Below are positions 3,791 through 51,025 of a DNA stretch of 64,000 nucleotides, piece after piece. The DNA comes from Moniliella sp. 'wahieum' (Eukaryota > Basidiomycota > Moniliellomycetes > Moniliellales > Moniliellaceae), in NCBI GenBank assembly GCA_003971905.1, contig RSEE01000111.1, forward strand, positions 62,001 to 126,000, given 5' to 3'. How positions within the stretch are numbered: position 1 is the stretch's first letter; every line of letters starts with the position of its first letter. The translations under genes and the position numbers were made by a program. The notes beneath the pieces were generated by a model, which saw only the letters and a program-made list of their open reading frames with translations, had not been told where the DNA came from and searched no databases.

Positions 3791-3849
3791 GAGTTCTGAG
3801 ATTCAGATTCAGAATCACCACACCCGTCGATCCGTGACATCATCGATCA

Positions 3850-4790: not shown

Positions 4791-7700
4791 CTAAACAGGG
4801 ACCAAGAGCGTGCAAGAGCGTGGCAGAGCGTGGCAGAGCGCCAAGCTGCCAGAGTGTGCTAGTGCGCGCGACCGGAAGGGAGCAAGGGCGACGAGCCATT
4901 TTTTCCGACTCAGAGCAAGCCGGGGGAAGGTTCGAGTTGAGCCGGGACCAATCCGCGGCGGGTGAGACGGTTCGCGCAAGTGGCGTAAGAGTTGCAAGGA
5001 GGAATCAGCGAGGAGCTGCAAGGTCCAAAAGGATACGTTGCGGTAGCGTTCCAAGTTAGCGTTTTGGGACATGACGTGAGCCGCTAGAGCCTGGTACACT
5101 TTATCGTACATGATGGGCATGAGACCAGTTTGAGCCAAGTCCATCGACCCATCAAATTCGCTAAGGTCCATCACGATGCGCGCATGGATCGGGATCAGCG
5201 TCCGGTTCGCATTCATAAATGCTACAATTGGTCGGACGAACGCATGGTTCTTGTAGCTCAGCTGGTTGGTGAAGAGTGGCACGGCCGCTTTGATGTCTTT
5301 GAAGCGCACGTCCATGTCGATCACCACAGTGGGAGAGGGACGTTCGAGCGGGAGCGGACCTGCGTCGGGCTCGGAGGGCGGACCAAGGTCCGTCCCAGTC
5401 TCCGAGGAAGAGAGCACCGCGCGCTCGCGCTCAGTAGGTGCAACGGGAAGGGGGGACGATGACGACGCAGAAGCTGACGGGGGCGCCGTGCGACTGGCTC
5501 AGTCACTGGCTGTACCGCGGTGCACCTTGTTCTGCTTCGCTCACGTCTGCCTCCGCCTCTGCCGACGGGACCAAGCACGACGCATGTGGGTCATCCGTGA
5601 TGACGCCCAAGAAGGTCTGACGTCCGTCCTCGGAGAAAAGACTGAGGGTATCGGTCCAAATTTCGCCCGATGAATACGTTCTTTCAAGCGATGCAAAGCG
5701 ACGCGGACGCGTTCTTGTTTGACGTGGAGGGTACGTTGGCGCTCCGCCTCTGCTTCGGACGACAGGGCGACCTGGGACTCCTCGGCTTTCCTTGGGCCAA
5801 CTGGGCACCAGCGCCGACGGCTGTGACGGGGACCTCGATTGCCGGTTCGTTGAGGTCATGTTGGCCCGAGACAAAGCCTCCGCTCGGGCTGGGCGAGCAG
5901 AGACGCGCCTTGCTCAACAGGCTGGGAGGATGGCGTGTGCGTGTGCGGGTACTGGTCCCTGTCGCGCCGACCAGACCAGACAGGTTGGATGCAATCTCAC
6001 TAAAGATGGCGTTGATGTCCATGTCCTCGGTCAGGTCGCGCGGGAAACGCAGGTCGGCCACCACGTCGAACCGGCCACTGAGGATCCATGCAATGGGGCC
6101 AGTGGCCTGGGTCGACTGCGACTGGATGTGGTCAAAGTTGACACCGTCGATGCGGATGCGGGAACTGGTACGAAACGCGCAAAGTCAGTCTGGATTGTCC
6201 CCTGGCATGCGATGTCATAGCCCAGGAGTCGAGGAGGGGCGGGGTAGGCGTAAGGCAGGGGTTAGGGAGGGAAGAGAGGGGGTGGGGGGGGGGGACGTAC
6301 CACGCGGTCCCATTGGCTCTGCTGGTTCTGCGAGCGTTCTTCTCGACGGACTTGCCGACAGACTGGGGCGTGTATGGAGGGAGAAGAGGCATCCATCGAA
6401 CTCCCCGTAATGGAGTTGGCCGAGAGAATGTCGTAAAAGATCCACTGTTTGCGGAAGCGGGGCAAAGAAGCCGAGAAGACAGACATGTTAAACGGCCGGA
6501 ATGTTGGGCTGGTAAATCGTGATCAGCACATCCTCACGTCGAGTCGTTCCAATTCAAAGTCGCCATGTTTGGCAGTACGTCGTGCGGCCTTGGGGTCGTA
6601 CACCGGTTCGGTCCCAAAACACTTGGCGCCGATCCACCGTGCCACGCACACCACGTACCACCGCGCTGCGCAAGATGCCCTTTCCGTCCCACCATTGCCC
6701 AAAATCCAGTTGCACATCAATGCTGTCGACCGACAAGTCAAACATGGTAAAGTTGTTGTTCAACAACTCTTCCTCCAACCCACGCGCGCGCGCCGACATG
6801 GGCATCGCCATCTCCTGGTCTTCGTAGTACATCCCGTCCCACGCATGACCACTGTGGTTGTCCTGTGCACCAGGTAGGGACGGGGGCAGGAGGGCGGGGG
6901 GTGGCGACGTGGGTCTGTGTGCCCGAGGTGGAGTGTAGAGTAGTAACAGAGGAAGGGTACATAGGCCGCATCTCTTCGTCGTCGGCGTATACGGCGAGCG
7001 CCTTTGGCCCGCCAACACTTCCAGACGATTTGGCGCAACGTTTCGGGGTCGTAAGAGGGCGACGGGAGATGAAGACGTTTTTGAAGCTGATTCGCCCTTC
7101 GCGCCACTTGGGCACAATCGCCGACTCGAATACGACGCTCACCCCGTTTCGGCCGTGAGGTAATCGGTCAACTTGCGTGCGATCAGTGGTCCAAGTTTAA
7201 CAGCTTGGCACCGGCAAACACGACGCTGACAAACGTTGTCGTGCCACTACAAACAGCAAGATCGTACCCACTGAACCCAGGGTAAAAAAACGCACTGAGA
7301 TCGTCCGCTTGAACGCCGAAAAGAGCGGATGGTAAACCACTTGAACGGATCTGGAGCCGCGTCCAAAACCCGCGCGCGTACCGCAACAGTTCCTCTTTGG
7401 TAGGACGGTGCCAGGGGGGGGAGGTGCGGGTCGTGGGGATGTGGGTCGTGATCGAGGCGAGGGTGGTAAGGTCGTCGTACAAGCGCGCCCATCGTGGGTT
7501 TCCACAGCGGATCGTCGAACCCGCCCGGGCCAACGTAGGCCGGGAAGGCAAATGCGATGACGAAGGCGAAGAGGAAGATGGAGATGAAGAGGAAGGTGAG
7601 GTGTGAAGGTGAAGTGCGACCGTTGGGATCGGGACGTTCGCCCTACCAGCGGCTGGCGCCGCGGGAGGAATGGAAGGGAGATGAGGCAAGACGACCCCTG

Positions 7701-19925: not shown

Positions 19926-21163
19926 TTAGGCCGTGCCCAAGAGTTCGGGCGCGGTCTGGTCCTTGACATAAGCCGAGACCGACTCGACCTTATCGCACCA
20001 AGTGGCGAGGCGAGTACGCAGTTCTTCAATCTGCGTTCGGTCCAGGACGCGGGGCTGGACCCAATCCACCTTGACAGTCGCCTGGACCTGGTCCATGGTA
20101 CCGCGAATCAAATGGAGCGAGAGGGCCTTCATCACCAGATGTTCCACCTCGTCGAGCGGCAGGCGCGTCTCGCGCGCAATCGAGCCAAACGTGATTGCCG
20201 CGCGCTGTTCGGGCGAGCGGGCAAAGACAGACTGGATCAAGGCCATCAACACATTTTTGGCGCAAAACGAAACGTTGGCACCTAGGATCGGTTCCGCCGT
20301 TTTGGCAGGGAGTAAAATGGCTTCAAACGCGGCCAAGTCACCGGCATTGTACGCATTGAGCAGTTGCACCAGCAGCGCATGCGGCGTGCCCTCCAGCGCG
20401 GCCACAATCGGGTGCAACAGCAACTCGCCAAAGTTGTAAATCGCATCCGATAGCAACGCAGCCAAGGCCAGGTCGTGCGCACGTTCCACCTTGTCCTCGG
20501 CGGTCAGGTCCGTGTCGAGGTTGACACAGGCAAGGTAGAGCAACGAGTTTTTGTAGTAGGGCGCATACTCCGCCTTGGCTTTGTGGTAGTCGCCTGCGAC
20601 GCGGTAAAACGCACCGTACACGGCCGGGTCTACCGCGTCAAACTGGGCCAGCAGGGCGGCACAGTCGTCCATCGCCTGCTTGGTCGCGGGCAAGTTGCCG
20701 TGGAGCAGTTCGAGATGGGCCGCTTCCATGGCGAGGAGGATGTAGGCCTCGCGTTCTGGAAGGGCGAGTTGACGGCGGCGCGGGCGCCCGCGGAGGCCTG
20801 GTAGCGCGGCTCGCGCTCCTCGTCGGCGTCGGGCGCGGCGGGCTTGACGCAGCGACCTGGGCGGCGAGGAAGGCGCGGGCATCGGCCGGGCGCGGGAACC
20901 GCTTGACGACGCGCACGGCAATCTGGGCGCGGCGGAGCTGGTTGATCTTGCCCTCGAAGCCGGCGACAAAGTGGTGTAGAGGGCGACGGTGCGCGAGGCG
21001 GGTGGCGGCCTCGGGGACTGGAGAAAGTGCTCGAGGGCGAGGGTGAGCTGGTACCAGAGCTTGCGCTCGTACAGGTCGCGCATGGACTCGTACAGCGCCT
21101 GAGCACGTCGGGCGTGCTGGGCGCGACGGCCTGCTCGGCCACGTACGTAGCGGTGGCGTCCAT
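19926..21163 (-). CDS. RPN9: 26S proteasome regulatory subunit RPN9 (PSMD13)
   Basis: Rpn9 is a PCI-domain scaffold subunit of the proteasome lid. The protein begins MDATATYVAEQAV at 21163, followed after a frame break by ESMRDLYERKLWYQLTLALE. It continues with EAYILLAMEAAHLELLHGN, YKNSLLYLACVNLDTDLTAE and ALLSDAIYNFGELLLHPIV, all diagnostic of Rpn9, then the PCI winged helix (ITFGSIARETRLPLDEVEHL, IRGTMDQVQATVKVDWVQPR) and ends near APELLGTA at 19926. Length is about 390-410 residues, as in yeast and man. The segment 20780-21000 contains two frame breaks around FEGKINQLRRAQIAVRVVKR. The gene is divergent from the coiled-coil gene, with about 1 kb between starts. Confidence 0.9.
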
Positions 21164-22176
21164 GGGGGTGGGGGTGGGGGCGGTGGGGCGGGCGAGGGCG
21201 AAGACGGCGGAGAAGGGGTTATTACGTCCTGCGGCAGGCCACGCGTCGTCCGCACGGGGCGGGGGCGCTGAGGTAATGGCACGTGTCCGGGGCGAGTGAA
21301 ATTGACAGCGGGGCGGAATGGAATGGAGAGTGGTGTACGTAAGCAGCGGAAGGGCGGGCTGGGAGCTGAGACCCAACGGGACGTGTGGCATGCGGGCAGC
21401 GTGTCTTCCCCATGGGCGCGTGCCGGCGTGCAAGGGGGGCCGCGTGGCACAGGGCCAGTGTGCTGCGTGTGTGGGCGGGCCCATGCGCTGCCAGGAGTGC
21501 AGCAGCACACGCGCCGGCGTGGAGCACTGGCACACTCGCCCGCCGCCCACCCTCGCGCAGCGCTCAGCGATCGGCACGCCCGCCGCGGCCACACCGCTGC
21601 CGTGCCGGCGCTGGGCGAGCGAGCGCCACAGCAACCCTAGCGGCGCGGCCGCCAGCGCGTGCTGGCACGCGGCGGGTGTGCGTGCGCACGCGCCAGCACA
21701 GGCGCCGTGCGGCGCTGCGGGCCGGCGGGGGACGGGGCGCGCCAGCTGGGCGGACGCTGCCGCAGTGCCGTCCCCTGCGCCGCGGCGGGCGCCACGCGGC
21801 GAGTGTGGTGGGAAAAGGCAGCCTGGCGCCCAGCGCGTTTCTGCAGCGCTGCGTTTGGGAGGCGACTTTACTTTCTCTCTCTCATCCACCCACACCATCC
21901 ACAGCCACACCCGCGCGCCTGGAGCACACGGCATTCATCCTCACCTCCATCTCCACTTCCACTTCCACGCCACCTCCATCTCCATCTCCATCTCCACCAC
22001 CACCACCACTTCCACCGCCACCCCTCCATCTCATCTCCACCCCCTCCTCCTCCTCTCCTCCACCCCCCATATTTATGGCCCCCACCTAACCCCCATCCAC
22101 CCCCAACCCCAAGTACGTCCCCCCCAGCCCATCGTCGCCCACACCTCCTAACCCCCCCCCACCCCAGTCTTTACCC
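21164..22176. promoter_or_regulatory. shared upstream region of RPN9 and the coiled-coil gene
   Basis: Divergent 1-kb intergenic region. The right third is a pyrimidine-rich microsatellite (CCATCTCCA and CCACCACCA type, 21945-22065) ending in a TATTTAT box at 22070-22076, 101 bases before the ATG at 22177. Open frames in the left part are GC-bias artefacts. Confidence 0.5.
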
Positions 22177-36287: not shown

Positions 36288-36889
36288 CTGGGATTCTCCT
36301 GCCCCCCTGACTTTCTGAACATGTTCTCTTTTTTACCGTCCCAGTAATCGTATGCGACACTGACACCAGTACATATTGTTGGCCTTTTAGCTGATGCGTC
36401 CTATCATTGACAGAGCCTAAGGCTGGGACAGGGGGAATGCTACGCCTAAACCGAACCGTTCATCTGCGGGGGTTACCTGGAAGCGCCCCCAGGTTAAAAG
36501 TAGCTTATTCAGTACACCATCGATCATCTGCATCATCAATAGTATCAGACGCAGATCACGTGCATCATGTATTGTTGCCACGTCACCCACCGGTGCCTTG
36601 CCTGATCGTAGATGTGAAAGCTAGACCCTAGAGTTGCCGCGCGCAGGCCAGCAGGCCACGTGTACATTCCTGTCCCACTGCTTGCTCTGTCCTCTTCGCC
36701 ACCACCTCTCCTTCCCCCTTCCCTTCTTCTCGCTCACCTCGTTACTTGATTCCTACTCGCTGATCGTCTGTGGTTTAGAGACTAGGTGTCTCCAGGTCAG
36801 AGCCTTCCACGCGTCGCTACAGTATGCGTCATGTGCATCATGCAATGATCAATTGATCTCGGTTGTAGAATGGATAAGCACTTGGTCCA
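36288..36889. other. left edge of the mating-type region
   Basis: Non-coding, with copy 2 of the dispersed repeat (36402-36457). The segment after it keeps an open frame reading TEPKAGTGGMLRLNRTVHLR, so the repeat may derive from a transposon gene. GC content falls from here on. Confidence 0.5.
36402..36457 (-). repeat. dispersed 55-bp repeat, copy 2
   Basis: Inverted relative to copies 1, 3 and 4. On this strand it reads CATTGACAGAGCCTAAGGCT, then GGGACAGGGGG and ending CTAAACCGAACC. Confidence 0.7.
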
Positions 36890-38244
36890 GCCCCTTGCCT
36901 CTCAGTTGGGGGACGAGCATTCCATGTCACCAGCAGCTGTGGCCAAATGAATAGCCGTGGTTGTTTCCCCCTTGGTGCATCCAGCATTGACCCACCCGCA
37001 ACTCCCACATTTGCGAAGACGTAGCCTGTTCCTGTCCATACACGTGTGTAAAAGGTAAGCACCACTGGTGGAGGCTGAACTCGATCGCCTTTGACCACAA
37101 ATGTTGTTGTTCTGGATAGATGACCAATGACATACCGAGGATGGATTGCGCTTGAAAAGTTGAACCCAAAAGTAGATATCTTCTTTGTACCCCGAACGAG
37201 GAAACTCTTGACCCTTGTACCAATCCCTGTACGCTTGAATCTGCTCCCTGGTGAATCGTATGTAAATATCATGAAGGGTACACCAAAGCGAGAAGCAGCG
37301 TAGCATTTCTCCAGACCTTATCGTTGTCGTGCACCCAATATGAGAGGTTGTAGTCTTCATGTTCATAATCCCACGACACTCATGAGAATGGGAATTTAAG
37401 TCAGCCTCAAGTTACTGTTACACAAATATGAATGTACAGTACGCACCGTAATGGTACAAGGGCTGCTTCGCCCTTTTCGAGAACTGAAAAATGACCCATA
37501 TAAGGTACAAATGGCCACCGTCACTCCGAAAACGAGGAGTCGAACGAAGGCTGCTGGTTGACTGCTTCCTTCGTACCCTTGATCAAGAATCGCGTCTTAT
37601 CGTGCTCCACAGTCGAATGTACGCCAACTGGTGACGCTATTACAGGCCAAATATTGGTTAATATTCCTGTGAGATAGTTCGACGGACCAGAGGAAGAGCG
37701 TACTTACCGGCATACCCCCGCTACCACAGGCAAATCAGCAACCATAAGAATGAACGAAGATCCCGGAACAGTGAAGTCGATACGGGGTGCAGCCACTTGG
37801 TCCAAGGACGTCGCTGCGGTGCCCCCTGCGCCACGTATTGCAATCCGGTGAGAACACTCGGTATACCAACGCCAATACTATGTTGATAATGAGAGATCGC
37901 TTGGTCTTGGCATGGTTGGTTGAGTTGGTTGACAGAATGGCCAAAATCTCTCTAAACAAAATCACCTCGGTGCAGGATAACCCGGTTAGAGACCACTGTT
38001 CGATTGGCAACGATATATCGCACCAATCAATGGTCGTGCACGGTCTGAGTGTTACCGCCGATAGCATTTTGACATTGGAATATTTCCAGATGTTGGTCGT
38101 CATGATCGTGCTTGACACAATCGAGTAAAGCAGTACTCGGTACGCATAGATGCCCGCCCTTCTTGAGTTGCACAGGAGGAGAAGACGACCAAACATGCTC
38201 AAGACACCGAGTGTACCTACGATGCCGGAATATGCCGTTACCAT
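36890..38244 (-). CDS. STE3: STE3-type pheromone receptor (seven-transmembrane GPCR), frame-broken
   Basis: Receptor for the lipopeptide pheromone of the opposite mating type, acting at the plasma membrane upstream of the G-protein/MAPK cascade. From the ATG at 38244: MVTAYSGIVGTLGVL, NSRRAGIYAYRVLLYSIVSS, IDWCDISLPIEQWS (the WCDI motif after TM2) and LFREILAIL. Then KRSLIIN, a shift to SIGVGIPSVLTGLQYVAQG, a shift back to HRSDVLGPSGCTP, and a further shift to RIDFTVPGSSFILMVADL. The GIP...QYxxQGHR...GC order is the STE3 signature across TM4 and the second loop. An intron follows (GTAAGTACG at about 37709 to AATAG near 37640), then RHQLAYIRLW, FVRLLVFGVTVAICTL and, near the end, LTFYTRVWTGTGYVFANVGV. 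At least three frame shifts mean either indel errors or a decaying allele. The 3' end is uncertain. Confidence 0.72.
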
Positions 38245-38717
38245 GGCTGGTGTTTTGAGGGGGATCGAAAGACTGAGTTGGAAAGAAGAGGTGAAAATGA
38301 TATAAAAGAATGTGGGAGGACCACGTATATATGTACTTCGGGATTACTAAAATACTATAATGCTGCTATATATAGGATCGGACGATCCGGCAAAACGATA
38401 TGGGGAAGATTATCGATACTAACGGTCGGTGTTGTCACGCGTGACTCATTCATTAATCATGCAGAAACACTTTTACTTACACATATTGACGGAAAGACTT
38501 CACTCTTGAGAAGCTTGAAGCTTGAAAGCACACAAAAGGAGGCAAACGCATATATTGCCTTTGGGCCTCTCCCATACAGGCTGCCACAAGGCCGGGTCGC
38601 GTGCACAGAGAAATGAGCGTAGCCGAAGCAACACCCCCCAGAACGGGTTTAGCTGTAACAGTCAGTTTAATCGAAGGAACAATACCGGAAGGGGCGATGG
38701 GTGATACAAAAAAGGAC

Positions 38718-38726
38718 ACAAAGGGA
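38718..38726 (+). promoter_or_regulatory. pheromone response element ACAAAGGGA upstream of pheromone gene 1
   Basis: Exact match to the PRE bound by the HMG-box factor Prf1 in Ustilago. It lies 300 bases before the ATG and about 48 bases outside the block shared with copies 2 and 3, so it was not simply co-duplicated. Confidence 0.55.
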
Positions 38727-38901
38727 AAATGCTGCAAAAGGGGGGAGACCAAAAAAGCCGCACCTGCCGATACACCGCCTTCCAGCAACATACATAATAT
38801 CGGTACGTCAGCAAAACTGGCGTGTAAAAGGAGCCGCGGGGGTTCCGGCTAAAGAGATAGGAAACAGACGATAGTATACTCTGCTAGGGACAGTGCACTG
38901 C

Positions 38902-38909
38902 TATTTAAG
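38902..38909 (+). promoter_or_regulatory. TATA-like box of pheromone gene 1
   Basis: TATTTAAG, 109 bases before the ATG, conserved at the same relative place in all three copies (109, 111 and 115 bases before the ATG). Confidence 0.65.
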
Positions 38910-39017
38910 AACCCATTTTCCACAATGCCGGACGCACATCACCACTACCCTCACCCACTCTTTCTCTCCTCTTCAGCCTCTGCCGTCGCGCATCAGCACA
39001 CCGTATCTTCCATCAAG

Positions 39018-39204
39018 ATGTCTCTTTTCACCATGTTCACCATCCCTACCAACACGATGGCGGCCGAGCCTCTTGGCCCTGACCAGGACCCGAGTATGTA
39101 ACGCAGCTCCGTTTGGTCTGATTCGACCGCCCCAACCGTATGTTGCTAACACTGTGCTGTTTGCACGCCCAGCTGGTTCCATGACTGGCTGTGTCATTGC
39201 CTAG
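39018..39204 (+). CDS. lipopeptide mating pheromone precursor, copy 1
   Basis: A 35-residue precursor encoded by exons 39018-39093 and 39173-39204, split by a 79-base intron (GTATGT donor, TGCTAAC branch site, CCCAG acceptor). It starts MSLFTMFTIPTNTMAAEP and ends TGSMTGCVIA, a CAAX box for farnesylation of the cysteine, removal of the last three residues and carboxymethylation. Length, N-terminal Phe/Thr-rich pro-region and the MTxCVIA end resemble Cryptococcus MF pheromones. Residue 19 is Leu here and Ile in copies 2 and 3. An upstream ATG at 38925 is in frame but lies only 16 bases after the TATA box, so probably before transcription starts. Basidiomycete pheromones are exported by an ABC transporter (Ste6) and recognised by STE3 receptors of the opposite type. 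Confidence 0.9.
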
Positions 39205-39445
39205 AGGGGCTTTCTGGTAAAGCCCTCCCATGCCGGTCAATCCCCAATCCTCCCTTCACTGCTGTTAGTCAGCTTAGGCATATCAGCAGTTCTCCTTGGC
39301 ATCCCTATAGTTGATGCTGATCTCTGCGCCTGTTTGGCCCGTTGAGATGCTGAGAGGCGTGCACCATGATGTGTTTGTCTTTCAGTCTCTTCTAGCGCGG
39401 CCCCGGTATTTGATCACTCTTCTCTTTTACCTCTTATACCCCCGG

Positions 39446-39469
39446 ACCCCCCCCCCCCCCCCCCCCCAC
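39446..39469 (+). repeat. poly-C tract downstream of pheromone gene 1
   Basis: About 20 C residues between CCCCGGA and ACCTATAGGAG. The same tract and flanks occur after copy 2 (about 43290-43312), so it belongs to the duplicated block. Confidence 0.8.
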
Positions 39470-39713
39470 CTATAGGAGAGAGCAGACACTTTGTGTGTTG
39501 CATTGATCAATGGTCCGTGAGCAACAGAGAGAGGCCTGGAAATATCCCTGTTTCCCAGTAAATATTAAGGAAGAGCGTTTGCACGGAATCGACACACCGA
39601 CTACTAAGGTTTGACCTAACCTCAATATTTAATGCCCTCTTACCCCCTACTGTGGCGTCACCCCCTAGAGAGGCGTTGTCAGCGCATCTCTCCCTGCCCG
39701 CCTTTCTTGTCCA

Positions 39714-39768
39714 AGTCCTGGCCGTTTAGTCCTGGCCGTTTAGTCCTGGCCGTTTAGTCCTGGCCATT
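39714..39768 (+). repeat. 14-bp tandem repeat, four units
   Basis: AGTCCTGGCCGTTT is repeated almost perfectly four times, the last unit changing GTTT to ATTT. It lies just outside element copy A and probably arose by slippage. Confidence 0.85.
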
Positions 39769-40722
39769 TCCAGCCAATTGATTGAATAATACATGCAACC
39801 TCTCTCGTCTCTCCACTTAGCTGCCTCCTCTTCATCATCCAGCCTCTCGTCCTCCAGAGAGTTCCATGCGCCCAGTGGCGCGAGCCTTCCTTCAGCCGGT
39901 CAATTCCCGGGCCGTACCACAGCATATCGCGTGGGTTCCTTTCCAGCCACGTCGACAGCCGCCCCTGGACAGCCTCAGCTCTGGCAGTGTTTGTTCTCCA
40001 CTGACTCTACCCGTCCCTAAGTCCCAGAGGCTTCAGACACGTTACTATACGGCCCAAGCCGGTGCATAGGCAGCCTTGCCACACGTGCAGCCGCCTCAGC
40101 TTCATACTCAAAGGCTTCTCCTCGTCCCTAGCTCCACTCGGATCCACCAAGTAGCCCAATCCCGAAACTTCCTCGAGTCGTCTTTCTGTCACCTAAGGAA
40201 TTGTACCCCCAAAACGTGGGCGATCCCCTTGGCGGGTCCCGCCTGTGACAGGGTCGGCGTAATTCGCGTTGAATGGATCGAGCCCACCGCATCCTCGGTA
40301 CCACCTATCAGCCCTGATGCATTTTTCTCCACATCTCCGCCTTGCTGTACGACTCCGCCTGTTGTGCCACGGATACTCTTTTCACCACTGCTCCCCTTTG
40401 ATCCAGTAGTAAAGTCCCCATAGGATGGAAGGCATTATATAACACACTCATCCACCTATCGAGCGTAAACGCTAGGTCATTGGAGGATTATCCGAACGGA
40501 GCTAGGGCCAGGGCAGAGACGCGTCGGGTGGTGATCGGTCTTGCAAAATAAGCATTGTGGGCACAGTCGGCAGTCTTGTGGCCAGGGCGACGGCATGGCG
40601 GCACAACGCTGGTCGTGGATTGAAGGTACACTACACCGTGTGCGAGTGTGGTCGTTGGTGCGGCAATGAGGGCACCGCCAACAGTGAGCACGGTAGGGGG
40701 CATTTTAAGGTAGTGGACGGGC

Positions 40723-40734
40723 GCGTCGACGCGA
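40723..40734. repeat. 12-bp palindrome CGCGTCGACGCG, site 1
   Basis: Perfect palindrome just upstream of the zinc-knuckle ORF of copy A. The same 12-mer occurs at the matching place in copies B (41075-41086), C (48485-48496) and D (49392-49403). Confidence 0.8.
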
Positions 40735-40799
40735 CCCTGTGTCATACACAGCGGATTTCAAAAAGAGGTAAAAATATCAGCGATGTTCGGGAGCTGACA

Positions 40800-40925
40800 T
40801 CGGCGACGTGTTTGCATGGTTTTGAGGAAAATGATGTCAGCGACATCGAAAAAGAGGTCGTTGATATCAGCGACGGCGCAAAAGAGGTCGTTGATGTCAA
40901 TGAAGTAGCGTCCCCCTGTCCCAGC
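40800..40925 (+). repeat. short tandem repeat encoding KEVVDISD-type units
   Basis: AAAGAGGTCGTTGAT recurs 27 bases apart at 40851 and 40881, with a weaker relative at 40835. Read on the plus strand it gives EKEVVDISD and AKEVVDVNE. It sits between element copy A and dispersed-repeat copy 3 and belongs to no recognised gene. Confidence 0.5.
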
Positions 40926-40953
40926 CTTAAGCTCTGTCAATGAAATGGACATG
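40902..40953 (+). repeat. dispersed 55-bp repeat, copy 3
   Basis: Same core as the other copies, lacking the first CGGTTTAGAC bases. It abuts the KEVVDISD-type tandem repeat on its left. Confidence 0.7.
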
Positions 40954-41074
40954 GTCTAGAGATCTTTTATTACCATACGCGAGGGAGGTGCAAGAAATCC
41001 GCCAACAACCCTACTGCCCCCCCCCACCTGCACGTGACGGGGGGCTGCGCCAACGATCGGGCATATGACAGAGT

Positions 41075-41086
41075 CGCGTCGACGCG
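41075..41086. repeat. 12-bp palindrome CGCGTCGACGCG, site 2
   Basis: Lies 18 bases before the ATG of the zinc-knuckle ORF in element copy B. Confidence 0.8.
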
Positions 41087-41104
41087 TCCCTCCACTCCCT
41101 TAAA

Positions 41105-41381
41105 ATGCCCCCTACCCGTACTCACCGCCGGTGCCCCCATTGCGGCACCAACGACCACACTCACGCACAGTGTTCCTTCAATCCACGCCGAGAGTTGTGC
41201 TGCCACTGCCGTCGCCATGGCCACAAGGCTGCCGACTGCGGTAGTTTCGGGTTTGGGCTATTTGATGGATCCGAGCCGAGGAGAAGCCTTTGGGCGTGAA
41301 GCCGAGGCGTCCGCACGCGCGGAAAGGCTGTGTATGCGCCGGATTGGGGGTAGTAACGTAACTGAAGCCTACGGAGCTTAG
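41105..41381 (+). CDS. small double CCHC zinc-knuckle protein
   Basis: About 90 residues. It starts MPPTRTHRR, then CPHCGTNDHTHAQC and CCHCRRHGHKAADC, two perfect CX2CX4HX4C zinc knuckles 12 residues apart. After one frame break it continues as GLGYLMDPSRGEAFGREAEA, then ARAERLCMRRIGG, and stops at TAG 41379-41381. Tandem CCHC knuckles are typical of retroviral/retrotransposon Gag nucleocapsids and of small single-stranded nucleic-acid-binding proteins. No protease, reverse transcriptase or transposase is attached. Copies A, C and D carry damaged versions. Whether it is a mobile-element gene or a host-like gene is unknown. Confidence 0.55.
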
Positions 41382-42233
41382 GGACGGGTAGATGCTGTGG
41401 AGGAAAGAGACTGTCAGGGCTGAAGCTGGGCGGGAGCTGTGCACGTAGCTGTGAAAGGAACCCACGCGATATGCTGTGGTATGCGGAACCGACCCCGCTG
41501 AAGGAAGGCTCGCGCGACTGAGCAGATGGAGAGCTGGAGGACGAGGTTGGATAGTGAAGATGAGACAGCTAAGTGGAGACGATAGGTTGCCTGCATTACT
41601 CAATCAGTTGGCCGGAACCGTCAGGAGTTGGACAAGAAAGGTGGGAAGGGACGAGAATGGAAGGTGGGATAAAGGATCCCCACTGATTGAGGATGCTGAC
41701 TGTTGGCTGACCCTGTTTTGGTAACCCCCTCCTGTCTAAGCCTCACCGCACTGGCATATAGATGTTGACAGAGCGAAGCAGACGAAGCTGCTACAGAGTG
41801 CCACTTGGGAGCACTCATCGCGATCCTATGGATCAGCTGCAACGCAGCCTTCAGACAAGGCGTGAAGGCAATGTTCAAGCAACATCTGAATTGAAGGAAA
41901 GGAGACAGGAGAGAGAGAAGGGAGATGAAGCGAGCAGGGCGCGCGCGCCCTGCGAGCGGAACTCTTCCGCCCGGGTAAGTGAGCGTCACCGATCCACCGA
42001 GAGGGCCGTGCAAGGGAACCCCAGCACTACCCTCCAACAGAAGCAAGCGAAGACTGCGAAGGCACTAAGAATGTCATCCGATAGCACTTCCTCGTAAATG
42101 ATAATGTCTTTTCGTGATCCGCTGTGTAATATGCCCGATCGTTGGCGTAGCCAGCCTCACCTACCCGTCACGTGCAGGTCGGCGAGCAATAGGGTTGTGG
42201 CGGATTCTTGTTCACCCTCTCTGATATAGAGGT

Positions 42234-42291
42234 TCGGTTTAGACGTAGCGTTCCCCCTGTCCCAGCCTTAAGCTCTGGCAATGATATGGAT
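42234..42291 (+). repeat. dispersed 55-bp repeat, copy 4
   Basis: The best-preserved plus-strand copy: starts CGGTTTAGACGTAGCG and ends GGCAATGATATGG. It lies at the left edge of the duplicated pheromone block. Confidence 0.75.
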
Positions 42292-42394
42292 TCGAAAGTA
42301 GTAGAGATCGCAGTAACCTCTCTTCAAGCTGCAAGCAGTTGGCTTCATTGACCCTGTGTGAAACATAGGTCAGGTGGAACAGCGAGCAATGTAC

Positions 42395-42403
42395 ACAAAG
42401 GGA
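42395..42403 (+). promoter_or_regulatory. pheromone response element ACAAAGGGA upstream of pheromone gene 2
   Basis: Exact PRE, 471 bases before the ATG at 42866. Confidence 0.5.
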
Positions 42404-42747
42404 ATTATTTTTCGACCCAACAGCAGCCACAACAGTCATATTGAAGGAAGTATACTATGTAGCTGAAAACCTTGGATTGGCGTATGAAAATATGGCTCAA
42501 GACCTTCACTGCCAGTGGGGGTGAACGAGATTCGCTCCACCCACCCCGAACAGAGAGGGCGGACCTTCCGAAAGAGATTTGGAACTTCCGAAAGAGGGAG
42601 AGTCGACTTGCCGATACACCCTGCGTTCCAGCAACGTGGACATCGGTACGTCACAGCAAACCTGGCGTGTAAAAGGAGCCGCGGGGGTTCCGGCTCAAGA
42701 TAGGAAACAGAGGATAGTATACTCTGCTATTAGGGACAGTGCACTGC

Positions 42748-42755
42748 TATTTAAG
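42748..42755 (+). promoter_or_regulatory. TATA-like box of pheromone gene 2
   Basis: TATTTAAG, 111 bases before the ATG at 42866; same sequence as in genes 1 and 3. Confidence 0.65.
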
Positions 42756-42865
42756 AACTCATTTTCCGCAATGCCGGACGCACATCACCACTACCCTCAC
42801 CCACCTCTTGTCTCTCCTCTTCAGCCTCTGCCGACGCGCATCAGCACACCTTAACTTCCATCAAG

Positions 42866-43054
42866 ATGTCTCTTTTCACCATGTTCACCATCCCTACCAA
42901 CACGATGGCGGCCGAGCCTATTGGCCCTGACCAGGACCCGAGTATGTAACGCAGCTCCGTTTGGTCTGATTCGACTGCCCCCCGACCGTATGTTGCTAAC
43001 ACTGTGCTGTTTGCACGCCCAGCTGGTTCCATGACTGGCTGTGTCATTGCCTAG
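42866..43054 (+). CDS. lipopeptide mating pheromone precursor, copy 2
   Basis: Exons 42866-42941 and 43023-43054 with an 81-base intron. The 35-residue product starts MSLFTMFTIPTNTMAAEPIG and ends TGSMTGCVIA. It is identical to copy 3 and differs from copy 1 only at residue 19. The ATG at 42771 is out of frame with this one, which supports 42866 as the true start. Expression should be induced by pheromone signalling if the upstream ACAAAGGGA acts as a PRE. Confidence 0.9.
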
Positions 43055-43289
43055 AGGGGCTTTCTGGTAAGCCCTCCCCATGCCGGTCAATCCCCAATCC
43101 TCTCTTCACTGCTGTTAGTCAGCTTAGGCATATCAGCAGTTCTTCTTGGCATCCCTACGGTTGATGCTGATCTCTGCGCCTGTTTGGCCCGCTGAGATGC
43201 TGAGAGGCGTGCACCATGATGTGTTTGTCTTCAGTCTCTTCTAGCGCGGCCCAGGTTTTGATCACTTCTCTTTTACCTCATATATTGGA

Positions 43290-43312
43290 CCCCCCCCCCC
43301 CCCCCCCCCCCC
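43290..43312 (+). repeat. poly-C tract downstream of pheromone gene 2
   Basis: About 22 C residues followed by ACCTATAGGAG, as after copy 1. Copy 3 has diverged before this point. Confidence 0.8.
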
Positions 43313-43547
43313 ACCTATAGGAGAAAGCAGACAGTTGGTGTGTTGTTATAGACCCGAGAGAAGGTAGTTGGTACTAGTGTATTGCATTAGTTGCACATGA
43401 GCTACAGAGGATAGAGAATATTCCTGCCCGCCAGGAAGGAATATTGCATGGAACCAACCAGAAGGTTCCGGACTTGGGCTACCGCCGCCACTACACCAGT
43501 GTGGCGTCACATCTCCACAAGCCCAAGGACGGTACCGACGGTTTTCC

Positions 43548-44255
43548 TCAAGCGCTCGAGCTCTTCAATCCCCACCAAAACCTATAGGCACCGGAGTGTC
43601 CAGGTGGGGGGAGATCAGGAATAGGACCCAATTCGCGGTCACGCAGCGGCTCCAGGGCCATGTATGCCCGGCTCTTGCTGTGGAGGTCGGAGACGTTGTC
43701 CACACCTTTTAAGGACACAGGAGTAACAATCCCTGCTCGGTTGCTCTCACGTATATAGGTGTAGGAGCGGGCAACGTGGCGCGTCCCTTTGGCAGAACCC
43801 CAATTATTCGCGCAGGCGACTGCTGCCACGGATGAGTCGCGCCGAAGCGCGAAAGGAATACCTGCGGGAAAAGCACCAAGCTCCGCTAACAGTTCACGCA
43901 GCGCCATAGCATAAGCCACACCCTCACTCGCTGCCACATACTCCGAGTCGCCCGTGCTGCGTCCCACCACGCGCTGCTTGGCCGAGCGCCAGCCAACCAA
44001 GGCTCCAAAAACGTAGACTGCCAGGCCAGAGGTGGCCTTGCTGCCCCACCTTTCGTTCTTGTAGCTACTGTCGGTAAAAAGTTCCAGCGGTGGGCCAAGG
44101 GTAGGGTGGAGTCGGAGCGCTAGACCAGCATTGTGACCCAGATAGCCCCCTACCCCGGCCAAAGCCGTCCAGTGTTGGGGACCAGGGTCAGCGCAGAATT
44201 GTCCAAGGGAGCGCACAGCAAAAGCAATGTCCGGCGGGTGCAGGACGCGATCCAT
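43548..44255 (-). pseudogene. copia RNase H domain
   Basis: Open for over 230 codons: HPPDIAFAVRSLGQF, YLGHNAGLALRL, ELFTDSSYKNERWGSKATSG, RSAKQRVVGRSTGDSEYVAA (the SKKQ...STxxSEY motif) and GSAKGTRHVARSYTYIRE (the KHID-like site is altered to RHVARSY). This is the best-preserved domain of the element. Confidence 0.88.
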
Positions 44256-44318
44256 CCTAGTGTTCCCACTTCACTGGCGAAGCGATGTGTCTCCTCCTCC
44301 GGACACTGTCGCTCGCCT

Positions 44319-44836
44319 TCAGCGCGGGGGACAAGCTGAGTCCCCGTAGGAAGGGCTGACGATAAGGTGGCTCGCCCTCACGTCCAAATCTTCACGTGCT
44401 CGCCTTAATATAGTCCTCCTGAGAGACATGGCACTCTCCAGGTCGGAAGCGAAACGCACACTCAGAAAGTATGCTAACGGACCGCCGTCCTTGACATCCA
44501 CATGTTGGCGTAGGTCCCATAAGAAGTTGTAGTATGCCTCAGCAGATGAGGCAGCGACGCAAGGATCATCCACCATATACAGAGGATGATCACTTCTTCA
44601 CCGCGTACACGGGTAAATACGCACGGGTCGGCGATAGTGGAGGTGCAGCCGATGAGTTGGAGCAACCCGGTAAGTTTCTCATACCATCTCCGCGAGCTCT
44701 GCTTCAGGCCATACGGGGCTTTCTTGAGTAGCCACACCTTACCATCTTCCCCGCCGAAGCCCTTTGGCGGTTCCATGCACACGTATATTCGCTTGGCTGG
44801 ATGTCGGCATAAAAGAAAGCGAACACCACATCGCAA
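44319..44836 (-). pseudogene. copia reverse transcriptase domain
   Basis: IYVCMEPPKGFGG, KVWLLKKAPYGLKQSSRRWY, TIADPCVFTR and, in a shifted frame, LYMVDDPCVAAS with the catalytic VDD. A frame break separates YGLKQ from VDD, so no intact enzyme is encoded. Confidence 0.85.
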
Positions 44837-45015
44837 GTGAAAACGGGTCAGTCATGACGCAGAGCAAGAACGATAACGGTTAGCAGTGCCATGAAGCGTA
44901 CAGTGGCGGAAGATTACGTAGTAGCTGGATCATAGTCAAGGCCCGGGCGTTGAAGGAAGCCCTGGCCTACCCACCGGGCGCGCCGCCGAACTAGTCAACC
45001 GGCCTCGGTTTTGTA

Positions 45016-45600
45016 ATGGCAGACAAAGCGAACCCTCGACACCATGGCATCACTCCCTTTCGCCGTCACTCCCTTTCGCCGTCACTCCCTTTCGCCGGCC
45101 GCTGCACGCTCTCCCAAACCCCCCCGGTCTTCCAGATTCTTCACCTCATCCCCGAAAGCCTGCTCCCACTCGCTTGCATCCGCACCTCGTCGGGCTTCAT
45201 ACTCATTGCGGGGATCCACCAACAGAGGAGGGACATCCCCACCATTGTCCCCACCATTGTCCCCACCATTGCCCCCACCACTTCCCACTGTGGTCACAGC
45301 CGCGGCAATGGGATGGGACGGTTGATATGCTTCGTCCCTAGTTTTGCCCTGATAGGGCCCAAAAGTTTGGACCAAACTGATTGCGCAAATCAGCCTGTAG
45401 GGCCGCCTGCCGTCTCGGGCGTTCATTGTGGTCCGGTACCGCAGCATTCGGCGCGGTTGGCTCCAACTCCGCAATCGTGGCTGATGGAATCAACGTGCGC
45501 CTGGGGCACAGGTCCAGGTAGTTGGTGTCATCACCCCATCGTAACATATCCCTCACCCAGGTGAACCGCCACTGCGATACTTCCCACTCGCCCACTAGCC
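45016..45600 (-). pseudogene. copia linker between integrase and reverse transcriptase
   Basis: Minus-strand frames read VSQWRFTWVRDMLRWGDDTN and ERPRRQAALQADLRNQFG, the variable spacer of copia Pol. It contains an 18-bp tandem repeat (CCCTTTCGCCGTCACT, three units at 45055-45102) and a CCCCACCATTGT repeat (45237-45285). Confidence 0.55.
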
Positions 45601-46747
45601 ACTTGCTTTGGCCCACGTCGTATCCAAGCGAGGAGCACCACGGGACGACAAGCGATTCTCCCGATCCTCTTCGTTCACGAGCGCATGGGCCACTGCACCA
45701 AAGCGATGAAGGTACGCTGGCGCAGCTGGTTTCTCCAGGTAACGCGTGGCAGGATTCGGAGGGCCAAGCTTGCCGATACTCATGTTGTGTATATATGCTG
45801 CGGCCTCAATGGCGAGCGGCCAAAGGTCCACATTCATCCGCCATGCCCGCATCTTGCAGTAGGGCTCGCGTAGTCGTGACAAGTTCTTGTTGGACACGCT
45901 CCACTTTGCCATTGCTGGCGCTAGCATTACACACCGTCTGGATGTGGCGAATCCCCATTTCAGAAAAGAAGGAAGCAAGAAGAAGCAAACTCAGTACCTT
46001 GGTCCGAATGGACGACAGATACCCTGTACCCCTTGTGCTGGAAACGTCGCTCCTCTTGGACGATGTGATTCCGGAGGAAGTAGCAACCTTGTCCTTTCCC
46101 GCCGCAGGATAAACGGAGCAGTACCTGGTGTGATCGTCCAAGATCATGAGCATGACAGTGGCGCCAAAAGCGTCTGACAGGGGGAACGTTGTCATCACGT
46201 CAACATGTAGCTTGTAGAGCGGTTGAGGGGAAGTCACGGGTTCGGCTACCCGATGGTGGGGAGCGTGGCGAGCTTTCTCGGTGGCACACACGGTACAGAA
46301 CCATTTGCTTTCCGCGCGGCGGACAACTGCGGCCGGTACCTCACAACTGTGTCCTTTGGAGGATTCAACCAGGCGGCCGAGTCCTATATGCCCTAAGCTC
46401 CTATGAGCGTCCATAACGCGCTCAAGATCGCCCTTCGAGGGTGTGGCCCGTGCAGAAGACGCGCTTGCTGTCGCCACGATTGGCGTCGGGGCCAACACGT
46501 GTGGCTGGGCTAAAAAAGTGGGAGTCGAGCACGACCTTGGCTGGCGGCGGCGTGTGCTGGTGTAAGTTGCGCATCGCCGCCCTGGGCGCGTCAGGTTCCC
46601 ACGGCAGGCCGACATCGCTCCGGGCGGCCGTGGTAGGTGGTGGAGTCTAAAGTGGGGCTGCTTGGGCTGCGCTGACCGGACTGGTTTCAAGGTTTCACAC
46701 AGGTCGACGTGCAACCAGTTGCACGCGCGGCCGGCAATCAACGTCAC
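45595..46747 (-). pseudogene. copia integrase domain
   Basis: HHCC zinc-binding part (AHRSLGHIGLGRL ... KWFCTVCATEKARHAP), the core with DVMTTFPLSDAFGATVMLMI, then LDDHTRYCSVYPA, the FFSEMGIRHIQT and NGKVERVQQELVTTTRALL helix, and then LAIEAAAYIHNMS and LHRFGAVAHALV from the C-terminal part. A frame break separates the core from the C-terminal part near 45850. Confidence 0.82.
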
Positions 46748-47118
46748 TAGTCACTAGTCACTAGTCACTGCTATGCCTGAAGTTGCCTCGCCAAGTGATC
46801 ATCGATCACTCGACAGAAGCGGGTCTACCAACCCTTCCACTAGACGGCACTCTGGCATGTAAAGGGATACAACTTCAAGCTTCATCGTTTACGCGTTAGG
46901 CCTTAGGGCGCGTACCCAGACGCGAACATCACCGATGTGGTTGCACAGCACAAGTTCACCATTTGCCAGCTCCGCCTTTTCCCGCGTCAGTGGGCCGCAC
47001 GTTCACCACCGGCCATCCGAGTCATTACGCAGAAGTGTCCATGGATCCTGAGAGATGCGTGCCTGCTTGAAATAGCCTCAGATTGTAGACGCCAACAGGG
47101 GGCCAGAAAGGCTGTCTT

Positions 47119-47476
47119 TCAGGGCCCGGTGAGGGGACGTGAGCCCGTCCCTGTCCAACATGTTCTCAACAGGACTAACTGCCCCCTCAAAATCAGCCTG
47201 GTAATTGTACCCACAGTCTCAGAGCTTGCCTTTTCCAAACAGGAGGATACTTGTCTTGATTTTCCTATCCAATATTCGCTCGACAGATCCAAACAAGTCT
47301 TGAACATACGACGACCAGGGACCATAAGATGTGGCCTTGGCTGTGAGCTTGGGAAGACTTGACCAGCCACCGCTGCGATTCACAGCAGTTTCAACCGCGG
47401 CGTTGAACGTAGGAAGCGAATCTTGGGATACGACCGTAGACAAAGGTGTCACGACGCTGGGGTTGAACGTTGACAA
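47119..47476 (-). pseudogene. copia gag start
   Basis: MSTFNPSVVTPLSTVVSQDS, then LPKLTAKATSYGPWSSYVQD and LFGSVERILD. The pattern LTA.NY..W......L resembles the start of copia gag. It is truncated after about 120 codons by frame breaks. Confidence 0.55.
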
Positions 47477-47567
47477 CTTACACGCGTGATTACCTGATGC
47501 ACCTGCAGTGCTCCCACTCAGTTGTGTTTTTGTTCATGTCAGGTTCTCTCTAAGTTGCGTCCACTGC

Positions 47568-47625
47568 ATATCATTGACAGAGCTTAAGGCTGGGACAGGG
47601 GAGTCGCTACGTCTAAACCGAACCT
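47568..47625 (-). repeat. dispersed 55-bp repeat, copy 5
   Basis: Inverted relative to copies 3 and 4, lying just right of the copia gag start and just left of element copy C. Confidence 0.75.
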
Positions 47626-47644
47626 GTGAAACATATAGAACGAG

Positions 47645-48515
47645 GAAGTGCTATCCGATGATATACTCTTAGTGCCTTCGCAGCCTCCACTTGCTTCTGT
47701 TGGAGGGTAGTGAGCTTCACGGGCCCTCAGTGGATCGGTGACGCTCGCTTAACCGGTTGAAAGAGTTCCGCTCGCAGGCCGCGCACGCCTTGCTCGCTCC
47801 ATCTCCCTTCTCTCTCTCCTGTCTCCATCCCTTCAGACGGTGCTTGATTCCTTCATGCCTTGTCTGAAGGCCGCTTTGCAGCTGATCCATAGGATAAGTC
47901 GCACTCTAGCAGTTTCGTCTGCTTCGCTCTGTCACCATCTATATGCCACTGCGATGTGGCTTAGACAGGAAGGGGTTACCAAAAAGGAGTCAATCAATAG
48001 TCAGCATCCTCGATCAATGGGAATCCTTTATCCCACCTTCCATTCTCGTCCCTTCCCGCCTTTCCTGTCGAACTCCTGACTGTTTCCAGCCAATTGATTG
48101 AGTAATACAGGAAACCTTTCGTCTCCACTTAGCTCCTTGCCAAGCGTGCGGCCGCTTCGGCTTCACGGCCAAAGGCTATCCAGCAAATAGCCAAAGCCCG
48201 AAACTACCGTGAGTCGTTCTGCACGTAAGGGATTGTACCCCACCAGCCTGGGTGAGCCTCCTGGCAGGGCCTCCCTGTACGCCTGTGACAGGGTTATCAT
48301 CGTAATTCACGTTTCATGGATCGGGCCTACCACCTCTTCCATCCCCTCCCTTGGCCACCGAGTCCCTTTGGGTTATCCCCCCCCCTCTCAATTGCTCTCC
48401 ACATCTCCTCCTTGCTCTATCACTCCTCCTTGCCAGGGTTACTCTTTGCACCACCGCTCCCCTTGTAAGGTATGGGAGAGGGGACGCGTCGACGCGACTC
48501 TGTCATATGCCCGAT
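47645..48515 (-). mobile_element. double zinc-knuckle repeat element, copy C (truncated)
   Basis: Starts at CGAGGAAGTGCTATCCGATG (47647) like copy D (48530) and ends near the palindrome at 48485-48496 followed by ACTCTGTCATATGCCCGATC. The zinc-knuckle ORF is missing. It is head-to-tail with copy D. Confidence 0.55.
48485..48496. repeat. 12-bp palindrome CGCGTCGACGCG, site 3
   Basis: Remains in copy C although the neighbouring ORF is deleted. Confidence 0.8.
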
Positions 48516-48527
48516 CATTAATCACGA

Positions 48528-49470
48528 GGAAGTGCTATCGGATGACATCATTTTTTGTCCCTTCGCAGCCTCCGTTTGCATCTGTTGGGGTGGTAGTGTT
48601 AGGCCTCCCCTGCACCCCTCAGTGAATCGGTGACGCTCTTGCTTAGCCGGTCGAAAGAGTTCCGAAAGAGTTCCGCTCGCAGGGCCCGCGCGCCCTGCTC
48701 GCTCCATCTCCCTTCTCTCTCTCCTGCCTTCTTTCCTTCAGATGCTTGTAGACTTGTGGTCACCCCTTTGCCTTCACGCCTGCAGTGTCTGAAGGCTGCT
48801 TTGCAGCTCATTGGTAGGATCTTGAGTGCTCCCAAGTCGCACTCTATAGCAGCTTCGTCTGCTTCGCTCTGTCAACATCTACGTATACGCAGCCTTGCCA
48901 CGCGTGCAGCCGCCTCGGCTTCACACCCAAAGGCTTCTCCTAGCTCGGATAGCCCAGGCTCAAAACTACCGTGAGCCGTCTTTCACGTAAGGGACTGTAC
49001 CCCACCAACCTGAGTGAGCCCCCTGGCAGGGCCCGCCTGCGACAGGGTCGTCGTAATTCACGGTACATGGATCGAGCCCGCCACCTCTGGATCATCGATC
49101 ATCCTTACTCCATCCTTCCACCAATCCACTTTGTCCTCCCCTCTCTTCTTGTCCTCCCCCCTCTTCTTGTCCTTCCCCCCCCACCTTATTTTTGTCGCAA
49201 AGACCCCAATTGCTTTCCACATCTCCTCCTTGCTCCACCGCCCCGCGGCAGTCTTTAGCCAGGTCGACGGCCGTGGGGGCACAAACGTGGGAGTGGATTG
49301 AAGGGGCACCGTGTGCCAGTGTGGTCGTTGGTGCCGCAATGGGGGCTCCGACGGTGAGTACGGGTAGGGGCATTTGAAGTGGGTGGAGGGACGCGTCGAC
49401 GCGACTCTGTCTTATGCCCGATCGTTGGTTGGCGCAGCCAGTCCCACCCACCCGTCACGTGGTCCGCGGG
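48528..49470 (-). mobile_element. double zinc-knuckle repeat element, copy D
   Basis: Same orientation as copy C. The coding part begins at ATG 49371-49373 (minus) as MPLP, then in a shifted frame RTHRRSPHCGTNDHTGTRC; the first zinc-binding Cys is changed to Ser, and the second knuckle is reduced to LCPHGRRPG before a stop. The palindrome lies at 49392-49403, followed by CCCGATCGTTGG and CACGTGG. Confidence 0.55.
49392..49403. repeat. 12-bp palindrome CGCGTCGACGCG, site 4
   Basis: Matches sites 1-3 in sequence and position relative to the zinc-knuckle ORF. Confidence 0.8.
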
Positions 49471-49636
49471 CAGTAGGGTTGCACATTTCTTTTGCCTGCT
49501 CGAACATGGAACTAAGAGATTGGCGTAGCCAGCCCCGCGGAGCAGTAGGGTTGCACATCAGGGAGCAGTAGGGTTGCACACTTTCTTTGCACCCTCGCAT
49601 ATGGAAAGTAACCGGTAACCGGTAACCTCTCTTCAA

Positions 49637-49680
49637 GTTTCAAGCTTCATTAAGCTTCAAGCTTCAAGCTTCAAGCTTCA
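49637..49680 (+). repeat. AAGCTTC heptamer tandem repeat
   Basis: Five HindIII-containing units with a small interruption. The corresponding place in unit 2 (about 42320) has only CAAGCTGCAAGC. The same heptamer is scattered at 59-63 kb. Confidence 0.8.
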
Positions 49681-49737
49681 TTGGCTTCATTAAACCCTGT
49701 GTGAAACATAGGTCAGGTGGAACAGCGAGCAATGTAC

Positions 49738-49746
49738 ACAAAGGGA
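49738..49746 (+). promoter_or_regulatory. pheromone response element ACAAAGGGA upstream of pheromone gene 3
   Basis: Exact PRE, 480 bases before the ATG at 50218. Confidence 0.5.
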
Positions 49747-50095
49747 ATTATTTTTCGACCCAACAGCAGCCAACAGTCATATTGAAGGAAGTATATGTAG
49801 CTGAAAACCTTGGATTGGCGTATGAAAATATGGCTCAAGGCCTTCACTGCCAGTGGGGGTGAACGCGGTGAACGAGATTCGCTCCACCCACCCCGAACAG
49901 AAAGGGCGGACCTTCCGAAAGAGATTTGGAACTTCCGAAAGAGGGAGAGTCGACTTGCCGATACACCCTGCGTTCCAGCAACGTGGACATCGGTACGTCA
50001 CAGCAAACCTGGCGTGTAAAAGGAGCCGCGGGGGTTCCGGCTCAAGAGATAGGAACAGAGGATAGTATACTCTGCTATTAGGGACAGTGCACTGC

Positions 50096-50103
50096 TATTT
50101 AAG
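50096..50103 (+). promoter_or_regulatory. TATA-like box of pheromone gene 3
   Basis: TATTTAAG, 115 bases before the ATG at 50218; same sequence as in genes 1 and 2. Confidence 0.65.
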
Positions 50104-50217
50104 AACTCATTTTCCACAATGCCGGACGCACATCACCACTACCCTCACCCACTCTTGTCTCTCCTCTTCAGCCTCTGCCGACGCGCATCATCACACCTTA
50201 CCTTAACTTCCATCAAG

Positions 50218-50406
50218 ATGTCTCTTTTCACCATGTTCACCATCCCTACCAACACGATGGCGGCCGAGCCTATTGGCCCTGACCAGGACCCGAGTATGTA
50301 ACGCAGCTCCGTTTGGTCTGATTCGACTGCCCCCCGACCGTATGTTACTAACACTGTGCTGTTTGCACGCCCAGCTGGTTCCATGACTGGCTGTGTCATT
50401 GCCTAG
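50218..50406 (+). CDS. lipopeptide mating pheromone precursor, copy 3
   Basis: Exons 50218-50293 and 50375-50406 with an 81-base intron; 35 residues, same protein as copy 2, ending TGSMTGCVIA. The in-frame ATG at 50119 would add 33 residues, but the added sequence differs from that of copy 1 and is out of frame in copy 2, so it is treated as promoter/leader sequence. It lies at the right border of the mating-type region, directly before a housekeeping-type gene. Confidence 0.9.
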
Positions 50407-51025
50407 AGGGGCTTTCTGGTAAAGCCCTCCCAATGCCACGGCAGGTCAATCCCCAATCCTCCTTCACTGCTGTTAGTCAGCTTAGGCATATCAGCAGTTC
50501 TCTCTTGGCATCCCTATAGTTGATGCTCATGTCTGCGCCTGTTTGGCCCGCTGAGATGCTGAGAGGCATGCACCATGATGTGTTTGTCTTTCAGTCTCTT
50601 CTAGCGCGGCCCTGGTACTTCATCTATCCATTTCCTCATCCCTTTTCCTTTGTTTCTGCGCGTTGCTACAGTGAGGGTGATCCAATGGAGGGTGTTTGCG
50701 ATAGTTATAGACGGGGTGAGGATTGTGATGCAGGGGTGGATGCGCTGTTGGTGTGCGATTGAGAGTCGGCGGTTGGCATTGCGAGTTGAGATGTTCGGTC
50801 TGAGAGAAAAAGGCGATGGTGGTGTTTTGAGCTGGCAAAGGCGCACTGCCATGTGGCACGCTGCCGGCGTCGGCACACGCGTGTGGCCTGCTGACGTAAG
50901 GGGTGGACGCGTGCGGGTGTTGGCTGTGCTGGTCTGCCTGGGACGCGCCACGCATTTCGCCATCGCCATCGCCACCGCCATCGCCACCGACTTCACCATC
51001 GTCTCTGCCATCCCCGCCGGGTTCC

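Follow-up and report, generated by a model that had tools for sequence, protein, structure and literature searches.

A stretch of 64,000 nucleotides (nt) from Moniliella sp. 'wahieum', designated the window here and representing positions 62,001 to 126,000 of contig RSEE01000111.1 (C111), was analyzed for a predicted pheromone/receptor (P/R) mating-type locus. The assembly consists of 223 contigs with 69.5 Mb in total, and contig C104 was compared with the window over 100 kb. Between window positions 37,120 and 50,406, a gene for a STE3-family pheromone receptor and three genes for CAAX pheromone precursors are located close together, as claimed in the original prediction. The precursor genes are all on the plus strand, at 39018-39204, 42866-43054, and 50218-50406, and the claim of three 35-residue precursors ending in CVIA held: they are real and spliceable, each with one intron (39094-39172, 42942-43022, and 50294-50374). 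The introns are 79-81 nt long and start with GTATGT. After splicing, each gene specifies MSLFTMFTIPTNTMAAEP(L/I)GPDQDPTGSMTGCVIA, 35 residues with the end MTGCVIA. When all six frames of the window were searched for C[VIL][VIL]A-stop tails, three were detected, which are those of the three precursor genes. Looser CAAX-ending frames gave nine tails in window 36,000-57,500 and seven in C104 118,800-134,000; among these no other pheromone type common to both contigs was found, exact last letters being shared only by MTGCVIA and one tail in a reverse-transcriptase stretch.

The receptor gene is located on the minus strand from about 37,120 (the low end is approximate) to 38,244. It is divergent from pheromone gene 1, about 770 bp away on the opposite strand. 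Its first exon matched the STE3 family PF02076 with E 1.3e-6 and 28.3 bits, slightly under the family cut-off of 29.2, and in a genome-wide profile scan the same stretch reached 30.6 bits, above the cut-off, with one internal stop. The C104 receptor, read through one frame change, matched PF02076 with E 5.3e-31, covering positions 3-292 of the 292 in the profile. The receptor had been described as joined segments, which is apt for a window copy broken by many small insertions/deletions (indels), and a match of these segments to a family other than STE3 had been named as a result that would refute the prediction; the matches are to STE3. Splice junctions were read from the alignment and are approximate, the last one most. 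All STE3 loci found in the genome are on C111 and C104 (three of three Pfam matches, and ten of ten protein matches using the C104 sequence); no further STE3 gene was found genome-wide by exon-by-exon searches, which could miss a strongly diverged copy. A search of 5.8 billion proteins with the receptor (5665 candidates) returned one match, with 48% identity over 52% of the query. This sole relative, P0001, is a metagenome protein of 184 residues on a contig of 3933 bases and is assigned to STE3 by Pfam.

The sequence ACAAAGGGA has been shown to be the pheromone response element of P/R loci in Ustilaginales, as described in PMC3248468. Exact copies were detected upstream of all three pheromone genes: at 38718-38726, in the STE3/pheromone intergenic region and 300 bp upstream of gene 1, at 42395-42403, 471 bp upstream of gene 2, and at 49738-49746, 480 bp upstream of gene 3. 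These are the only exact elements in the window (three versus 0.31 expected), and all are on the plus strand, the strand of the pheromone genes. The element of gene 1 is also present on C104 (C104:121583). Over 15 stretches comprising about 267 kb, 11 exact elements were found, three in the window, one on C104, four in a candidate homeodomain locus on contig C29, and three in STE12 regions, and none in the remaining ten stretches. The four elements on C29 lie within 9 kb, where 0.08 would be expected, and this sequence pattern suggests a shared regulon.

The pheromone genes are part of a duplicated cassette including promoter, gene, and 3' region, which extends from 42351 to 43265 (plus strand) for gene 2, with further copies at about 38,765-39,415 and 49,694-50,624. 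The genome contains five such cassettes, three in the window and two on C104, each less than 13 kb from a receptor, and the C-terminal tails of the pheromones are the same in both places. Over about 640 bp, identity is 97.3% between the two C104 cassettes and likewise between window copies 2 and 3, 95.1-95.5% between window copy 1 and window copies 2 or 3, and 91.5-94.3% for window-to-C104 pairs. Thirty-eight gap-free sites split the five copies two versus three; 20 of them group the two C104 copies together, 12 group two of the window copies, and six conflict with this by grouping window copy 1 with its positional partner, C104 copy 1. In a tree of the cassettes, the C104 pair obtained a support of 1.0, and the branching among the window copies was weak (0.46). 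The first and last cassettes are located in matching flanks of both haplotypes and are therefore older than the haplotype split. Patchy gene conversion within each haplotype, that is concerted evolution, would be the simplest reading of these sequence patterns. In the coding exons (107-108 nt) zero or one difference was observed in all ten pairwise comparisons, and the 5' and 3' flanks show 13-25 differences in 192-250 sites each between the haplotypes. Such a near-invariant coding sequence appears to speak for selection on the peptide.

C104 positions 83684-140431 are collinear with most of the window, with long blocks of 87-94% identity and with 5.6% substitutions in the 53,951 bases that could be aligned. 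Collinear sequence is missing mainly for two parts of the window, about 39.5-42.6 and 45.8-49.7 kb, both in the repeat-holding cassette region. The order of genes on C104 is the same, receptor, pheromone, reverse-transcriptase stretch, pheromone, and flanking gene, with two cassettes versus three. Pairing was likewise observed in other regions of the assembly, namely for C105/C82, C11/C28, and C35/C46 at about 90-94%; for C10 no full partner was found among the regions compared. Over 307 codons, the two receptors differ at 33 of 921 sites, yielding a synonymous divergence (dS) of 0.064 and a nonsynonymous divergence (dN) of 0.029; 26 codons at gaps were excluded, and dN is inflated by codons near gaps. 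Judged by their sequences, both haplotypes hold the same receptor and pheromone lineage, that is, one P/R type.

The presence of a STE3-family receptor and of linked CAAX precursors, in three copies in the window and two on C104, marks a basidiomycete P/R locus, and the prediction of such a locus is borne out. Taken together, it appears quite likely that Moniliella possesses a P/R mating locus of the 'a' type, present as the same type on two haplotypes through fusion or hybridization of same-type lineages. According to PMC10262431, the receptors of heterothallic smuts do not respond to pheromones of their own mating type, and two diverged haplotypes of the same type are therefore not expected from mating controlled at the P/R locus. 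One type present twice suggests same-type fusion or hybridization, an event that lies far back, or a P/R locus that has no role in mating type. Given the shared P/R type, the two haplotypes probably came together by fusion or hybridization of same-P/R-type lineages rather than by P/R-controlled mating. A more far-reaching idea, put forward tentatively and rather doubtful, is that the P/R locus of Moniliella no longer decides fusion: same-type lineages would fuse, the homogenized pheromones would signal to the cells producing them, and the homeodomain locus alone would set compatibility.

A number of observations weigh against the interpretation as a functional P/R mating locus. For the pheromone precursor, no Pfam family was matched at E 1, and the coding part of C104 pheromone copy 1 carries a deletion of one base. 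With a dN/dS of about 0.45, the receptor shows modest constraint only. Between the window and C104 copies, 23 coding indels were counted, of which 20 are frameshifting, and the C104 receptor also requires one frame change to be read through. Regarding the response elements, two of 100 shuffles of the window reached at least three exact copies, and with one mismatch allowed there was no excess (14 versus 11.65 expected). Genes 2 and 3 have their elements in a duplicated block of 79 nt that is identical for both, and therefore only two independent cases are available. Elements at the pheromone genes, as in the a locus of Ustilaginomycotina, are present with the exception of the second C104 cassette, for which no exact match was found in the alignment. 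Exact elements also occur in two STE12 regions, two and one versus 0.06 and 0.05 expected. What matters for the weight of these elements is their position, upstream of all three pheromone starts and on the same strand. Finally, a second P/R allele was not found in the genome, so that allele-specific recognition can only be presumed, and both markers used to identify the organism (see below) match a second contig as well.

The disrupted receptor raised the suspicion of decay. According to this explanation, at least the STE3 gene of the window is a pseudogene in a long-asexual strain with two haplotypes, and the pheromone genes are kept by gene conversion. The receptor is indeed rich in short gaps: 21 of its 23 coding indels are bases absent from the window copy, window-side gaps of 1-2 nt amount to 23 over 1,257 bp (18.3 per kb) versus 289 (5.4 per kb) for the 53,951 aligned bases overall, and when the window was divided into bins of 500 bp, those at 37,500 and 37,000 had the highest and the fourth-highest number of such gaps. 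However, similar clusters were detected in other genes: a frame of 1170 residues, uninterrupted in the window, has 21 short gaps on the C104 side, and the MDM31 region has 25 on the window side. The receptor contains few substitutions, as given above, and the two copies are disrupted at different positions, as expected of noise. Since small indels are spread over both contigs, assembly noise is the likelier cause of the frameshifts, and a locus in decay is regarded as unlikely. A plain pseudogene, the first suspicion from the receptor alignment, was likewise less likely than noise after the indel survey of the whole window. In this survey, 289 window-side and 278 C104-side gaps of 1-2 nt were counted over the 53,951 aligned bases, short indels also being present inside conserved frames. 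This pattern is expected of a poorly polished long-read assembly.

The likeness of the two P/R regions could also stem from an ordinary a1 x a2 mating that was followed by loss of heterozygosity. There is a precedent in the H1 hybrids of Malassezia furfur, described in PMC9040865 as having lost MAT a1, with a possible duplication of a2. A recent loss is disfavored in Moniliella because nearly identical copies would then be expected; receptor and flanks instead differ by several percent (dS 0.064; 5.6% overall), so that any such event must be old. We therefore regard this route as improbable, and fusion or hybridization of same-type lineages is preferred as the origin of the two haplotypes. That the region is a Tremellomycete mating-type (MAT) locus with an unusual layout, as the original prediction had it from the CVIA ending and the MTGC context, which recall Cryptococcus pheromones, is hardly tenable in view of two gene-contig agreements with the published Moniliella assembly and of the lack of listed PBD, STE12-domain, or homeodomain matches on C111 and C104.

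The identity of the assembly was decisive in rejecting a Tremellomycete origin. For Moniliella sp. 'wahieum' ASM397190v1, table 4 of PMC7778628 places a 3-hydroxyanthranilate dioxygenase gene on RSEE01000002 and a DyP peroxidase gene on RSEE01000034. Matches to the first family were obtained here on C2 and C50 and to the second on C34 and C145, in agreement with both rows compared of the 24 in that source, provided that C numbers correspond to record numbers, as is presumed. The matches on the second contigs, C50 and C145, would stem from the other haplotype or from a paralogue. In taxonomy, Moniliella is placed in Ustilaginomycotina in a class of its own, Moniliellomycetes; by assembly identity, the host thus belongs to Ustilaginomycotina, as required for an a locus of this group. 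The Cryptococcus gene set is not expected for the same reason.

A further observation on the assembly concerns 5.8S rRNA, which was detected at no fewer than 14 places on 13 contigs (C21, C33 with two, C37, C83, C89, C195, C178, C41, C103, C39, C137, C6, and C2), with scores from 148.6 down to 120.3 bits, when 39 of 1571 candidates were scored. Hence, several sequence variants of the rDNA are present in one assembly. The 5.8S sequence of one copy appeared Ustilaginomycotina-like, which is a hint and carries no weight as proof.

Comparisons with known systems revealed likenesses and differences. The a locus of Ustilaginales (mfa/pra in U. maydis, Sporisorium, and Pseudozyma), as described in PMC3248468, likewise contains a STE3-type receptor, CAAX pheromones, and ACAAAGGGA. 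In contrast to Ustilaginales, the window of Moniliella contains three pheromone genes that are nearly identical, have an intron each, and represent a single type; for smuts, one or two pheromone types per individual are reported in PMC10262431. Neither panC nor rba was recognized as a neighbor, although lba, rba, and panC were not searched for by name, and border genes vary even within Ustilaginales according to PMC3248468. Malassezia, with its P/R locus, also belongs to Ustilaginomycotina, and the M. furfur hybrids, too, hold two diverged subgenomes. PMC9040865 infers these hybrids to derive from a1 x a2 mating with later alteration, whereas both Moniliella haplotypes are of one P/R type. In Trichosporonales, STE11 and STE20 are located between the P/R and homeodomain genes, which are about 55 kb apart (PMC6730849). 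The MAT loci of Cryptococcus and Trichosporonales likewise combine a CAAX pheromone with STE3, but they belong to a different class, and in Moniliella no linked STE12-domain, PBD, or homeodomain match was found. In Cryptococcus, multiple identical pheromone genes occur.

The absence of the Cryptococcus gene set had been noted before, and it can be extended in part: no homeodomain, STE12-domain, or PBD (STE20-type) matches are listed on C111 or C104, STE12-domain and PBD matches are located on other contigs, and STE11 and MYO2 were not searched. Thus, homeodomain, STE20, and STE12 genes were not found near the receptor, where they would be in a fused bipolar MAT locus. A candidate homeodomain mating locus was detected on C29 (L053, G000:C29:155001-164000, at 939-5050), with an apparently intron-split gene matching the homeodomain at E 4.7e-6. 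A second possible homeodomain-like frame upstream is without Pfam support. Relatives of the gene are present on C6 (86%), C11 (84%), and C5 (69% over part of the query). The P/R locus and the C29 gene lie on different contigs, and the distance between them, should they be linked at all, is no less than about 240 kb (84 kb to the end of C111 plus 159 kb to the end of C29). If the C29 gene is a homeodomain mating gene, this distance excludes a small fused MAT locus and is compatible with a pseudobipolar one.

Of the flanking genes predicted originally, RPN9 was verified on the minus strand at 19,926-21,218 (PSD13_N, E 4.6e-55), and the Myb-like and zinc-finger genes correspond to open frames for which no Pfam family was matched at E 0.001. 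Exon pieces at 28.2-28.4 kb, spotted through peptide strings, are presumably NOP10-like. A fragment of a copia-type reverse transcriptase is located between pheromone genes 2 and 3 (44474-44851, minus strand; PF07727 RVT_2, E 1.8e-9), and the stretch is also present on C104, where 121629-124074 aligns to window 42606-45065. Long inverted repeats (89% over stretches of 181 and 110 nt) surround the cassette region at 39758-42300 and 47640-49660; they have relatives at C104 132850-134060 and are probably remains of mobile elements. A short recurring sequence, 'aaggctgggacaggg' or its complement together with 'tcattgacagag', is found near the cassette borders (window 36397-36480, 42217-42295, and 47560-47638) and also in L053 on C29 at about 3200-3260; it is possibly the terminus of an element.

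The precursors would presumably be farnesylated, trimmed, and exported, and the peptide would activate the STE3 receptor of a partner with another P/R allele. The pheromone MAP kinase cascade would then relay the signal to a Prf1-like HMG factor, which may increase pheromone transcription. Moniliella has been studied for erythritol (PMC5319944), and papers on biodiesel tanks mention this strain by name. Searches of the open-access PMC literature yielded no account of mating genes in Moniliella or Moniliellomycetes, which is consistent with the suggestion of an undescribed architecture. The locus offers precise targets for asking whether Moniliella yeasts have sex. If the response elements work, the ACAAAGGGA pheromone circuit would extend beyond Ustilaginales. 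The genome, in which two diverged haplotypes share a single P/R type, is also a case for studying the origin of same-type hybrids outside Cryptococcus.

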